Assembly: GCF_022808815.1 (NCBI RefSeq)
Contig: NZ_JAKZLC010000004.1
Coordinates: 1-64,000 of the forward strand
Length of the DNA: 64,000 nucleotides
Reading direction: 5' to 3'
From: Geothrix paludis
GTDB lineage: Bacteria; Acidobacteriota; Holophagae; Holophagales; Holophagaceae
The position numbers and the translations under genes were made by a program. The notes below the pieces were generated by a model. That model did not search any database. It was not told the origin of the DNA and was given only the letters and a program-made list of their open reading frames with translations. Positions 4,972 to 56,412 of this stretch are shown here, one piece after another; the stretch's first letter is position 1; each line of letters starts with the position of its first letter.

Positions 4972-5083
4972 CATCACGCGATATCCAGAAAGGTGGAGGG
5001 ACGGGCCCTGTGAAACCTTGGCAACCTGCGAGAGCAAGGTGCCAATTCCTGCCGCAAGCGATTGCGGAGAGATGCTGACGTGT
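4972..5083 (+). promoter_or_regulatory. SAM-I (S-box) riboswitch aptamer
   Basis: The conserved S-box core is present in order. AGAAAGGTGGAGGGAC starts at 4987, GGCCC...TGAAACC...GGCAACC follows, then AAGGTGCCAATTCCTGC at about 5035-5052, and the 3' strand GAGAGATG closes P1 with the 5' ATC (4983-4985). Outer P1 pairing may extend through CACG/CGTG. Known S-box RNAs bind S-adenosylmethionine and shut off methionine and cysteine genes. That agrees with the trans-sulfuration gene downstream. Confidence 0.93.
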
Positions 5084-5097
5084 CAGAAGCTGACATG

Positions 5098-5127
5098 CGA
5101 AGGGGCCCGAGAAATCGGGCCCCTTCG
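5098..5127 (+). terminator. expression-platform terminator hairpin of the SAM riboswitch
   Basis: A 13-bp perfect stem (CGAAGGGGCCCGA with TCGGGCCCCTTCG) and a GAAA loop follow the aptamer. The preceding segment at 5074-5096 contains two CTGAC copies and a GTCAG that could form alternative pairings. The usual T-tract is absent: only TT follows before the palindromic element begins at 5130. Confidence 0.75.
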
Positions 5128-5129
5128 TT

Positions 5130-5401
5130 AGAGTGCCTAACCAAACCCCGACCGGGCCGCGAGAAAGCCAGGCGGGATGCACCGCAAGGAAGGGCCCGCA
5201 GGGCGATGTGGTTCATCGTTCAAGGGCCGTGACGCCGCGGGGCGCCCACCTGGCTTTCTCCCTCCGGGCGAGGGCCAGCGGGCGTCGCGGTGCCGCGTCA
5301 CGCTCGTCGCGCGTAGTACCCGCTACGCGTCTCCTCGCGTTCCTCGCCTCGCTCGCCCGGTGGCCCTCGCGCGGCCCCGTGGGGGTTTGGTTAGGCACTC
5401 T
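5130..5401. repeat. 272-bp palindromic element folding as a three-way junction
   Basis: Outer arms 5130-5160 and 5371-5401 are inverted repeats matching at 29 of 31 positions (AGAGTGCCTAACCAAACCCC...). Directly inside, 5161-5176 pairs with 5245-5260 (15/16), closing a 100-nt arm. Then 5268-5284 pairs with 5354-5370 (16/17), closing a second arm whose interior holds a 7-bp hairpin (5310-5329). The arms abut with almost no gap, giving a cloverleaf on either strand. No target-site duplication and no plausible gene are visible. It resembles a MITE or REP-like element inserted between riboswitch and gene. Confidence 0.85.
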
Positions 5402-5451
5402 GATTTGGATCGCAGTGGAACGACGGAGGTCCTCCCTTTCCGGAGGCTCCC

Positions 5452-6720
5452 TTGAGCGAGCATTACCTCGATACCAACGTGCCGGGCAACCCGGCCTACC
5501 ACTTCACCATCCTGCCCCCGGCGCGGGAGAGCGAGGCCGGCTGGATCCACCGGGCCGGGCTGGTGCCGGACGCGGGCCTGGGCACCCAGTGCGTGCACGC
5601 GGGCGTGCAACCCGATCCGGCCTATGGGTCGGTCATGCCGCCGCTGTACCTCTCGTCCACCTTCGCGTTCAAAGACATCTGCACCAACGCCGGCTACGAC
5701 TACACCCGCAGCGGCAACCCCACCCGAGCGGCCCTGGAGGAAGCCCTCGCCCTGCTGGAGGGCGGCCACGGCGCCACCTGCACCAGCACGGGCATGAGCG
5801 CCATCCTCGTGGCGCTGAACCTGCTGCCCCACGGCAGCCACCTCGTCTGCACCGTGGACTGCTACGGCGGCACCTTCCGCCTGCTGGAGCACGCCAAGCG
5901 CTTCTACGGCCTGGAGGTCACCTACCTCGACCTCGCAGACCTGGACGCGGTGGCGGCAGCCATCCGGCCCAACACACGCCTCATCTGGATCGAGTCGCCC
6001 TCGAACCCCCTGCTGCGCCTCACGGACATCGCCGCTGTGGCGGAGCTGGCCCACCGCCAGCCGGACTGCCTGGTGGCCGTGGACAACACCTTCCTCTCGC
6101 CCTACCTCCAGCGCCCCTTCGAGCTGGGCGCCGACCTCGTCATCCACTCCACGACCAAGTACCTCAACGGCCACAGCGACGTGGTGGGTGGCGCCGTGGT
6201 GGCGGGGCCAGGCTGCCTGGCCCTCACCCAGCAGATCCAGAGCGTGAACAACCTGCTGGGCACCTCGCAGGCGCCCCACGACTGCTTCCTGGTGCTGCGT
6301 GGTCTGAAGACGCTGCCGCTGCGCATGCGCCAGCACGAGGCCACGGCTCAGGTGCTGGCGGAGTTCCTGGCCGCTCATCCCGCCGTGGGGAAGGTCCACT
6401 ACCCGGGCCTGCCCGGCCACCCGCAGCACGGGCTGGCAAAGCGGCAGCAGCGCGGCTTCGGCGCCATGCTCAGCTTCGAGCTGAAAGAGGGCGGTACCGA
6501 ACGCCTGAACCACGTGCTCCGGAAGCTGCGCTGGTTCACGCTGGCCGAGAGCCTGGGCGGCGTGGAGTCGCTGGTGGCCCACCCGGCCTCCATGACCCAC
6601 GCCTCCATGACGCCCGAGGCCCGGCACCGCGCCGGCATCAGCGACGACCTCGTCCGGCTTTCCGTGGGCCTGGAGGACGTACAGGACCTGCGCGCGGACC
6701 TGGCCCAGGCCCTGGCCTGA
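5452..6720 (+). CDS. metB: PLP-dependent trans-sulfuration enzyme (cystathionine gamma-synthase / gamma-lyase type)
   Basis: Member of the Cys/Met metabolism PLP family, acting on homoserine esters or cystathionine in methionine/cysteine synthesis. The 422-residue product has the phosphate-binding YTRSGNPT (84-91), Asp211 in VDNTF for the pyridine nitrogen, and Schiff-base Lys236 in HSTTKYLNG. The first 45 or so residues extend beyond most homologues. The start is TTG at 5452 with GGAGG seven bases upstream; no ATG is better placed. Control by the upstream SAM riboswitch favours a methionine-synthetic role. The family does not separate gamma-synthase, sulfhydrylase and gamma-lyase by motif, so the symbol is tentative. 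Confidence 0.85.
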   Translation: MSEHYLDTNVPGNPAYHFTILPPARESEAGWIHRAGLVPDAGLGTQCVHAGVQPDPAYGSVMPPLYLSSTFAFKDICTNAGYDYTRSGNPTRAALEEALALLEGGHGATCTSTGMSAILVALNLLPHGSHLVCTVDCYGGTFRLLEHAKRFYGLEVTYLDLADLDAVAAAIRPNTRLIWIESPSNPLLRLTDIAAVAELAHRQPDCLVAVDNTFLSPYLQRPFELGADLVIHSTTKYLNGHSDVVGGAVVAGPGCLALTQQIQSVNNLLGTSQAPHDCFLVLRGLKTLPLRMRQHEATAQVLAEFLAAHPAVGKVHYPGLPGHPQHGLAKRQQRGFGAMLSFELKEGGTERLNHVLRKLRWFTLAESLGGVESLVAHPASMTHASMTPEARHRAGISDDLVRLSVGLEDVQDLRADLAQALA

Positions 6721-8778: not shown

Positions 8779-9576
8779 TCATCCAAGAAAGGACCCGCCC
8801 GAGACGTCCAGGTACTGGCCCGTGATCCAGCGGCTGTCGGGACCAGCGAGGAATGCCGCCGCATCAGCCACCTCCTCGACCGTTCCCACTCGGCCGAGGG
8901 CGGACAGGGATTCCACGTAGCGCCGGTTCCCGGAGTCGCTCAGCAGTTGGGCATTCATGTCCGTATCGATGACGCCTGGGGCGAGCGCGTTCACCGTGAT
9001 ACCGCGTGGACCGAGTTCCTTCGCCAGCAGCAGGCTCAGCGTGTCGATGGCCCCCTTGGTCATGGCGTAGGCCGCCTCCGGAGGGTAGGCCATGCGCGTC
9101 ACCAGCGAGGACAGGTTGATGATCCTGCCGCCGTCGCGGAGCCTGGGGACCAGGGCCTGCAGCAGGAAGAAGGGAGCCTTCACGTTCACCGCGAACACTT
9201 CGTCGAAGGCGGCCTCCGTCGTCGCGCCCAGAGTTCCCTGGGAGGCGATCCCCGCGTTGTTGATGAGGATGTCCAGCCCGGTGGAACCCAGCCGTCCGAG
9301 GAGCCCTTTCTCCAGTTCCCGGACGAGGCGCTCGATTCCCGTCATCGTGCCCAGATCGGCCTGGATGGCCCAGGCCGCTCCCGAGGCCCCTTCGATCTCT
9401 TCCACCAGGGCCTGGGCGGAGGCCTCCTCGTGCCGGTAGTGGATCACCGTGAAGGCACCTTCCCGGGCCAGGCGCAGGGCGATGGCCCTCCCGATCCCCC
9501 GACTCGCGCCCGTCACCAGCGCGACCTTGCCTCCCAGGCGCCTGCCCTGGATCCCGTATTCCAGCCCTGCGTTCAT
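8779..9576 (-). CDS. SDR family NAD(P)-dependent oxidoreductase
   Basis: A classical short-chain dehydrogenase of 265 residues. It has the cofactor motif TGASRGIG (22-29), structural NNAG (106-109), and the catalytic Ser 156/157, Tyr170 and Lys174 in YAMTK. The C-terminal GQYLDVSGG is typical. It resembles 3-oxoacyl-ACP reductase-like members, but the substrate cannot be assigned. The ATG at 9576 has GGAGCG four bases upstream; the open frame extends 20 codons further without a better start. Confidence 0.92.
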   Translation of the reverse strand: MNAGLEYGIQGRRLGGKVALVTGASRGIGRAIALRLAREGAFTVIHYRHEEASAQALVEEIEGASGAAWAIQADLGTMTGIERLVRELEKGLLGRLGSTGLDILINNAGIASQGTLGATTEAAFDEVFAVNVKAPFFLLQALVPRLRDGGRIINLSSLVTRMAYPPEAAYAMTKGAIDTLSLLLAKELGPRGITVNALAPGVIDTDMNAQLLSDSGNRRYVESLSALGRVGTVEEVADAAAFLAGPDSRWITGQYLDVSGGSFLG

Positions 9577-9855
9577 GATCGCTCCTTCGCTGAGGGAGCC
9601 CGGGAGGGCCCGCCCCCACCGTCCCGGAAAGAACATCGCCCTGCATTCCGATCCTTGCGGCCGTATGCGGGTTGAGATCGGTGCGTTCTCAGACTGGAGG
9701 AGTCAGTCGAAGCGCAGATCGGCCAGGTTCAACCGTCAGCGCTTCGAGGAACCGTCCGATGGAGGCGCTCAGGTCGACTACTGGTTCGAGGAATCCCTGA
9801 CGCCCGGGCGCTGCGGGGATTCCAGCCTCTACCTCGGCGCTGCCCCGATAATCAA
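9577..9855. other. intergenic stretch without recognised content
   Basis: No supported gene, RNA or repeat. It separates the SDR gene from the tRNA-tail repeats at the integration site. Confidence 0.4.
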
Positions 9856-9880
9856 ACGCCCCACCGAGCTGGTGGGGCGT
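9856..9880 (-). terminator. terminator next to the degenerate tRNA tail
   Basis: A 10-bp stem (ACGCCCCACC/GGTGGGGCGT) with a 5-nt loop, followed on the minus strand by TTTGATTA. Its position relative to the tRNA tail at 9887 mirrors the terminator behind the intact tRNA-Asn. Confidence 0.65.
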
Positions 9881-9886
9881 CTTGTC

Positions 9887-9912
9887 TGGCTCCGGAGGGG
9901 GGATTTGAACCC
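9887..9912 (-). repeat. degenerate tRNA-Asn 3'-end copy (older attachment site?)
   Basis: TGGCTCCGGAG followed by GATTTGAACCC matches the 3' tail of tRNA-Asn, including encoded CCA, with one substitution within 26 bp. The T-stem beyond it does not pair and no tRNA body follows. It lies 181 bp outside the left island repeat. The segment 9887-10020 is also an imperfect palindrome, with a second T-loop-like GGGGTCCAAATCC at about 10000 on the plus strand. Confidence 0.6.
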
Positions 9913-10023
9913 GTTGCCGGCGACCACTCGCGCTTCATCCGTTCCGGCAGCGCCCCGCGCTGCCGGAGCGGCGCGCTCGCGGGCCGGCTGTCACTCGGGG
10001 GTCCAAATCCGCCAGATCCTAGC

Positions 10024-10070
10024 CCAACAAAGAACAAGGGGTCCCGGTGGGACCCCTTGTTCTTTGTTGG
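10024..10070. terminator. 22-bp perfect palindrome abutting attL
   Basis: 10024-10045 and 10049-10070 are perfectly complementary around a 3-nt loop (GGT); the stem contains AAGGGGTCCC. It runs into the first three bases of the 45-bp attachment repeat. In the minus direction it would end a transcript reading through the tRNA tail. Confidence 0.7.
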
Positions 10071-10112
10071 CTCCGGAGGAGGGATTTGAACCCCCGACCT
10101 AGTGATTAACAG
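10068..10112 (-). repeat. attL: 45-bp direct repeat of the tRNA-Asn 3' end
   Basis: Identical over 45 bp to 38543-38587, from TGGCTCCGGAGG to TGATTAACAG. It covers CCA, acceptor 3' strand, T-arm, variable loop and anticodon-loop bases. It bounds the island on the integrase side. Confidence 0.93.
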
Positions 10113-10276
10113 ATTCTTTTTGAGCATCACGACATCCCTTTGAAATTCAAACATAACATACATATTTATCAAATTTTATAAATATTTTCATCACCGCATA
10201 CCGTACTCTAAAACCCCCTGTAATACCGTGTTCCGCTGTAGCATTGCTGTAGCACGGTGCTACCGAGGGACAAAAA

Positions 10277-11554
10277 ATGGGTAAGACAGGTACAACCTCC
10301 CCTCGTCGAACCAAACTCACCAAGCGAATGATCGAAAGCTTGCCTGCAGACACCCAGGCCTACACGGTCTGGGACCAGGAGGTCCCAGGATTTGGGGTGC
10401 GGGTGCTTCCCTCTGGACAGAAGTCCTTCGTGTTGAAGTTCACGATCAACCGACAGCAGCGCTGGATCACCCTGGGGAGGTTCGGCGACCTCACACTTGA
10501 AGAAGGTCGAAAGCTCGCACTTTCACGACGCGGAGAGGCCGCCAAAGGCATCGACCCGACGATCGAGATTCGAGCCCAGAAGACCGCTCCCACCGTCAAG
10601 GAGCTCATCGATCGTTTCATCGAAGAACATGTCATCCCTAAGACACGAGAATCCACGGCCAGGGGCTACACAAGATTTCTCAAAAACGTTATCCAGCCCC
10701 GCCTTGGAAAGATGCTGGTCAAAGAGGTTTCCAGCGCCGAGATCGCTAAGTTTCACCACGACCTTCGGGCCACCCCACGCCAAGCCAACCAGGCGGTTGC
10801 CATCCTCCGGAAGATGTTCAACCTCGCAGAGGTTTGGAAGTACCGGCCGATCTCCAGCAATCCCTGCGTCCACATCGAGAAGAACCCTGAGCGGAAACGC
10901 GAGCGATACCTCTCCGATCCAGAGCTACATGCCCTCGGCGAAGCCCTTGTCGAGGCAGAAGACAAAGGGTCGGTCCCGCCAGCCGCGCTTGCTGCGATCC
11001 GCCTCCTAATCCTCACTGGGGCTAGACACAACGAGATCCTCAAGCTGCGGTGGAACCAGGTTGATCTCCAGAAGAACTGCCTGACATTCAAAGCCGACGA
11101 TCACAAAACCGGTGGCTCATCTGGGACCAAGACCATTCCCCTGAACCAGCCAGCATTGGATGTTCTGGCCTCGATCCCCCAAACACTAGGCAACCCCTAT
11201 GTCATCCAAGGGATCATCCCCGGAGGCCATTTCGTGGGTCTACAGAAGGTATGGGAACGGATCCGGAAGGATGTCTCCACCCGGGAAGCCGAGAGGGTGA
11301 AGCACAAGAAGAAGCGCAAGGAGGACGCGATCAGCCTTGAGGATGTCCGTATCCATGACCTGCGCCATACCTTCGCAAGCGTAGGAATCTCCAGTGGCTT
11401 CAGCTTGCCGACCATCGGGTCTTTGCTTGGTCATAGCCAACCCTCGGTCACCCAACGGTACGCCCATCTGGCCGACAACCCCCGAACCAAGGCTTCTGAA
11501 GAGATTGCCGCAAAGATATCTGGAGAGCTCTTCGGAAAATCACGAAATAGTTAA
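10277..11554 (+). CDS. int: tyrosine integrase with DUF4102-type arm-binding domain
   Basis: Site-specific recombinase of the P4/bacteriophage type, expected to act on the tRNA-Asn attachment site. The 425-residue product has an N-terminal arm-binding domain (about 12-100), a core-binding SAM-like domain (about 105-190) and the catalytic domain. Catalytic residues are Arg250 (TGARHNEI), His360 and Arg363 (HDLRH), His386 (LGHSQ) and nucleophile Tyr395. The ATG at 10277 has GAGGGA seven bases upstream. It lies at the end of the island away from the intact tRNA. Confidence 0.95.
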   Translation: MGKTGTTSPRRTKLTKRMIESLPADTQAYTVWDQEVPGFGVRVLPSGQKSFVLKFTINRQQRWITLGRFGDLTLEEGRKLALSRRGEAAKGIDPTIEIRAQKTAPTVKELIDRFIEEHVIPKTRESTARGYTRFLKNVIQPRLGKMLVKEVSSAEIAKFHHDLRATPRQANQAVAILRKMFNLAEVWKYRPISSNPCVHIEKNPERKRERYLSDPELHALGEALVEAEDKGSVPPAALAAIRLLILTGARHNEILKLRWNQVDLQKNCLTFKADDHKTGGSSGTKTIPLNQPALDVLASIPQTLGNPYVIQGIIPGGHFVGLQKVWERIRKDVSTREAERVKHKKKRKEDAISLEDVRIHDLRHTFASVGISSGFSLPTIGSLLGHSQPSVTQRYAHLADNPRTKASEEIAAKISGELFGKSRNS

Positions 11555-56126: not shown

Positions 56127-56330
56127 CGCCGTGGTTCTCTGAAGCCTGACAATTTCGTGCTGGATGCACGGGAAGCAGGTGAGACTCCTGCGCTGCCCCG
56201 CAACGGTATGCACCACGCCCACGCGTCACCGGGTGTGAGACCTCAAGTCCGAGTCACTGGGATCGTCCCGGGAAGGCTCGGAGGGAGCTGAAAGGCCCCT
56301 GTCGCGTGCGAGCCCGGAGACCGGTCCCGC
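56127..56330 (+). promoter_or_regulatory. cobalamin (B12) riboswitch
   Basis: The B12-box core is clear: GGGAAGCAGGTG, then CTGCCCCGCAACGGTA at about 56193-56208, GAGTCACTGG, GGGAAGG, and the 3' GAGCCCGGAGACCGG. The order and spacing match the family. Downstream a CCCGC/GCGGG pairing (56326-56352) may form part of the expression platform. All four genes following belong to vitamin B12 uptake, supporting the call. Confidence 0.93.
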
Positions 56331-56412
56331 ACCTCACCCCCCGTCGCGGGAACGGGCCGGGCCATTCCCTTGCGGGACGCCCAGCCGCCGCGACCTCATG
56401 CGTGGAGGCATG

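Follow-up and report, generated by a model that had tools for sequence, protein, structure and literature searches.

The window, a stretch of 64,000 nucleotides of Geothrix paludis, carries near its start a methionine gene whose leader is interrupted. A SAM riboswitch aptamer at positions 4978 to 5078 of the plus strand (RF00162, 80.5 bits, E 2.3e-17) is followed on the same strand by the stem-loop of its intrinsic terminator at 5098 to 5127, a perfect 13-bp stem that the repeat finder pairs as 5098-5110 with 5115-5127 and after which only TT remains. There follow TTA at 5128 to 5130, an interrupted three-arm palindrome of 270 bp running from GAG to CTC at 5131 to 5400 (plus strand), and TGA at 5401 to 5403. 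Empty sites and statistics identify TTA and TGA as the left and right copies of a TNA target site, here unlike each other at the middle base, while the limits of the element itself are set by its copies, 89 full-length examples of which make up our alignment A1. The metB-like cystathionine gamma-synthase gene lies downstream of the insertion at 5452 to 6720 (plus strand); the best NCBIfam match of its product is TIGR02080 (E 4e-142), below the cut-off of that model. The aptamer belongs to the host leader and lies outside the element, and with the terminator stem ending at 5127 the placing of the palindrome two bases beyond it, made in an earlier note on this DNA, is correct. Elsewhere the window contains a cobalamin riboswitch (56145-56343, plus strand; RF00174, 68.4 bits) and a tyrosine integrase with Arm-DNA-bind_3, SAM-like and Phage_integrase domains (10277-11554, plus strand), which possibly marks an integrative element; a tRNA search at 9500-10300, near the integrase, found none.

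The outermost helix of the palindrome joins the two terminal inverted repeats, at 5131 to 5160 (GAGTGCCTAACCAAACCCC...) and 5371 to 5400 (both plus strand), with 29 of 31 positions paired between 5130-5160 and 5371-5401. For all three arms the repeat finder agrees with our recount. The left arm (5161 to 5260, plus strand) has 15 of 16 basal pairs, between 5161-5176 and 5245-5260, and an apical hairpin GGGCCCGCAGGGCGATG-TGGTT-CATCGTTCAAGGGCC; the right arm (5264 to 5374, plus strand) ends in a CGCGTAG/CTACGCG hairpin. Its base, previously described as 17 bp, proved longer on recounting, with 19 of 21 pairs between 5264-5284 and 5354-5374, while the sizes given for the other two arms stand. Across the family, covariation is seen in 22 of the 27 pairs of the terminal stem, in helices 2-4 of the left arm and in helices 6-7 of the right. 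As RNA the plus strand folds at -192.3 kcal/mol, against a mean of -132.3 for shuffled sequences (z -11.9; 0 of 200 shuffles as stable), and similarly extreme values for the minus strand (z -11.6) and for a DNA fold (z -9.8) bear out the three-way junction claimed for either strand. The element holds no gene, as had been thought, and the Rfam search of the window copy matched no RNA family; extended to other copies up to E 1, it returned nothing inside the element and one weak match outside.

The element is not confined to this locus, which removes the refuting case set out in the earlier note, that further copies are absent. The genome of Geothrix paludis holds about six full copies in all, with several partial or diverged ones; the five full copies besides that at metB are 96, 94, 93, 93 and 83% identical to it. 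Copies occur in 40 of 47 Geothrix genomes and in 58 of the 93 genomes searched across the class, spread over eight genera that all belong to one family, Holophagaceae; the class genomes outside that family lack it, and plasmid records gave no match. A literature search found no description of such a Geothrix element. Some copies are elaborated or reduced. In one (L008/L010; L008 1288-1695, G000:C2 about 348150-348561) further palindromes are nested in the arms: one arm of L008 encloses a second large palindrome, and the other has an insert, some 40 nt long and able to form a hairpin, that is similar to one in L012. At G036:C27:7227-7276 two terminal repeats stand end to end within 50 bp as a solo hairpin from which the core has gone.

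Relatives that lack the element at several of its sites reveal the target, with consensus CTNAG, of which the three bases TNA are duplicated. In the clearest case the empty site reads GGCGGCGC-TAA-GTCCGC and the occupied form TAA[element]TAA; other empty sites read TCA-G and CTTTTT-GGATC. TNA is present on both flanks in 34 copies, in 20 of which the middle base is equal where 11.1 would be expected (p 0.0015), although the two target copies are frequently unequal at that base, which we count against an origin by IS5-type transposition. All 82 copies checked for this fall outside predicted genes. In 33 of them (about 40%) the TNA duplication coincides with or overlaps the stop codon of a neighboring gene (L004, L009 and L012 are examples), compared with 1 in the start-side control; gene calls around these copies were made with a simple codon-usage script. 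At L231 and L221, otherwise empty sites in G001 and G009 retain the short sequences TAAGAGTGC and GAGTACGACCTCTTA, which resemble footprints left when the element was deleted.

These features allow the arrangement at metB to be read. The closest metB genes are those of G. terrae, G. fermentans DSM 14018, G. oryzisoli and G. campi, and in relatives a T tract follows directly on the terminator stem (e.g. CTTTTTGGATC), whereas the same site in the window reads TTA[GAG...CTC]TGATTTGGATC, so that the element has indeed displaced the T tract. A terminator scan past the aptamer called an intrinsic terminator in both G. terrae and G. fermentans but none in the window. The element is mobile and no part of the riboswitch, and its insertion, judged from the sequence, has probably weakened the riboswitch by splitting the T tract of its terminator. 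As only TT follows the stem, weaker termination and read-through into a 270-nt folded structure would be expected, and the insertion would thereby disable the terminator and leave metB less repressible by SAM.

The candidates for the mobilizing enzyme are transposases of the IS5 family. In another member of the genus (G022) an IS5-family transposase (NF033580) is encoded by an element that terminates in GAACGGCTAACAAAACCC and GAGTGCCTAACAATAC and is flanked by TTA on both sides, and a genome of another genus of Holophagaceae (G088) holds five copies of a related insertion sequence, also with an NF033580 transposase (66-68% transposase identity), whose ends, where the repeats are clear, read GAAGTGGTAACAAAACC and are flanked by TAA/TAA or TTA/TTA. 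Two genomes thus contain autonomous elements of the IS5 family that have similar ends and duplicate TNA. Two results speak against such an origin: transposases related to the likely one are rare (4 of 93 genomes), and in the genome of Geothrix paludis itself no DDE_Tnp_1 transposase was found. A pattern search of seven genomes for ends 0.7-2 kb apart gave only pairs of the size of the element or shorter and one end of the G022 insertion sequence. The inner TAACAAAACC is common to the element and to the IS5-family elements, while the outer eight bases are variable in both. This shared inner sequence, together with the TNA duplication, makes movement in trans by an IS5-type transposase likely.

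The features by which a MITE is recognized were found here: inverted repeats at both ends, a target duplication and empty sites, a length within 50-500 bp, no transposase gene, many copies, and ends shared with the IS5-family elements of G022 and G088, with which the outer eight bases match in part. We therefore consider it highly probable that Holophagaceae have here a transposable element of the non-autonomous kind, a MITE, which is likely to be moved in trans by an IS5-family transposase. Of the earlier suggestion of a new MITE/REP-like family, the MITE half is retained, given the copies, empty sites and target duplications, and the REP-like half is not supported by the length of 270 bp, the target duplication or the ends of IS5 type.

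What distinguishes this MITE is that its ends vary more than its core. Between copies the outer terminal stem is 78% identical and the core 88%, whereas within a copy the two halves of the terminal stem are 96% complementary, compared with 78% between copies. The ends fall into discrete types, which differ chiefly at positions 4, 5 and 7 (TGCCT, GTCGT, CTCAT and CGCCT), and these are scattered over the core tree, on which, its support being weak, the 22 changes of end type are a guide only. One explanation is that several transposases of distinct end specificity each serve a subfamily, the matching ends reflecting co-adaptation and the arms being passengers. The discreteness of the types, and the variability of IS5 ends themselves, would suit this, as would the resemblance of the GGGCCTGTCTTCAAAGTGG ends of one variant, L013, to the GGGCCTGTTTTCAAAGTC ends of an IS5-family element, L114, in G030. 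L013 is one of three copies in the home genome that combine a related core with different ends, the others being L012 (GAGTGTGTTTTAGAATTC) and L011 (GAGGGTGTCTGCAAATTC). Yet many end types are single-copy, an unusual end being found within its genome only at both ends of that one copy, and no donor insertion sequence for such ends was found in seven genomes, a pattern not predicted by simple movement via several transposases. Moreover, near-identical cores in one genome (G014) bear different end types, and the arm stems covary as well. We regard this as a serious possibility, though one that falls somewhat short of an even chance.

The pairing itself was analyzed in the 89 full copies. Standard pairs make up 96.5% of the pair cells. 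Both partners have changed in 55 of the 103 pairs, and 540 cells are double-changed, a figure that falls to 143 on shuffling and to no more than 50 if the partner is slid. When a pair of genomes shares an insertion at the same site and in the same orientation, all 34 stem differences are one-sided and none is double. By contrast, 27 of 91 differences between nearest copies at different sites are two-sided and 64 one-sided (Fisher p 6e-5, from comparisons that are few and not fully independent), and of these 27, 25 fall in the terminal stem and 2 in the arms. One-sided decay in the shared insertions suggests that pairing is renewed along jumping lineages and not in resting copies; it therefore accompanies copying, at the DNA level, rather than a role in the resting copy.

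Template switching is known to homogenize the arms of inverted repeats and to flip the spacers between them (PMC8604942, PMC8794818), and replication alone might in this way keep the palindrome perfect, without selection for mobility. In L124 (2989-3262) and L127 (2995-3269) two genomes have an insertion at the same site but with the core flipped, which fits switching between inverted repeats (PMC8604942; see also PMC8794818). L152 and L167, at the same site in two genomes with opposite core orientation, may be a second example, but the two differ enough for a replacement, or for another insertion at that site, to be possible instead. Two further candidate pairs, L006/L045 and L047/L169, were rejected as separate insertions within one region. 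Resident switching should, however, have homogenized the shared insertions (0 of 34) and should treat all stems alike, contrary to the 25 recent double changes in the terminal stem and 2 in the arms, and as the whole explanation we think it unlikely. We are just as hesitant about a self-matching transposon, in which each jump would rewrite the terminal stem at both ends in one step by palindrome-dependent copying; the ends would then remain complementary while their sequence was free, though IS5-type elements are not known to copy in this way.

The earlier note had also allowed for a structured RNA, and a riboregulator or long UTR element that spread by transposition and was selected at its new sites would explain the very stable fold and the strong covariation. 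It could likewise account for the conserved loop-side motifs, for the few fixed G-T pairs, two of them conserved in tandem in the left apical hairpin, and for the orientation bias of 30:14 relative to flanking tandem genes (p 0.02). Compensatory changes are present, but G-T and A-C intermediates number 126 and 142 in the element, against 110 and 28 in the RNase P RNA of the same class, and this want of a G-T excess does not support selection of an RNA on one strand. Both strands fold equally, Rfam offers no match, the shared insertions lose pairs uncompensated, and at some sites relatives keep only short remnants. We accordingly set the RNA reading aside as quite improbable. An integron-type attC site, with the terminal GCCTAAC/GTTAGGC as R boxes and folding as a single strand, fits RYYYAAC/GTTRRRY in the window copy, but it can be dismissed, since the AAC/GTT triplets vary in the family (columns 14-16), the copies are dispersed outside cassette arrays, and a TNA duplication is unexpected for integrase recombination.

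The MITE reading suggests the following course of events. An IS5-family transposase acting in trans would cut at GAG...CTC, and insertion into CTNAG would duplicate TNA. The transposase may require matching ends, and in lineages still jumping both ends and arms would be re-matched, the copying step being probably arm-to-arm template switching on the palindrome.

Known systems show parts of this behavior. MITEs derived from IS5 elements with NF033580 transposases are likewise short and gene-free, with IS5-like terminal repeats, a short duplication and many intergenic copies, but the terminal repeats of the Geothrix element are its most variable part, matched copy by copy, and it is GC-rich, has a conserved three-way junction as its core and, in some arms, nested hairpins. 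REP and BIME elements, which go with RAYT transposases and a GTAG/CGTC-type tag, resemble it in being palindromic and extragenic. REP units are 20-40 bp long (PMC3733652), compared with 270 bp, a target duplication and IS5-type ends here. The QMITEs of Coxiella burnetii are also MITEs whose transcripts are predicted to be strongly structured, but their duplications measure 7-9 bp and their repeats 23-29 bp, and copy-specific matched ends are not described in the parts of the review consulted (PMC10969869). Quasipalindromes homogenized by template switching show arms matched by multi-base compensatory change and inversion of the spacer (PMC8794818, PMC8604942); they are resident sequences, whereas the matched changes of the Geothrix element arise between sites and not within shared insertions.

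The element is a real, unusual and family-wide MITE. The ends of ordinary MITEs are conserved because the transposase reads them. In this one conservation lies in the core, and the ends drift in agreeing pairs, which provides a natural data set on how transposon ends shift their specificity and yet stay functional. It also cautions that covariation alone is no proof of a functional RNA, the ratio of G-T to A-C pairs and the fate of shared insertions being what discriminates. At metB, a methionine gene, the element offers an example of mobile DNA that cuts off a riboswitch from its terminator.
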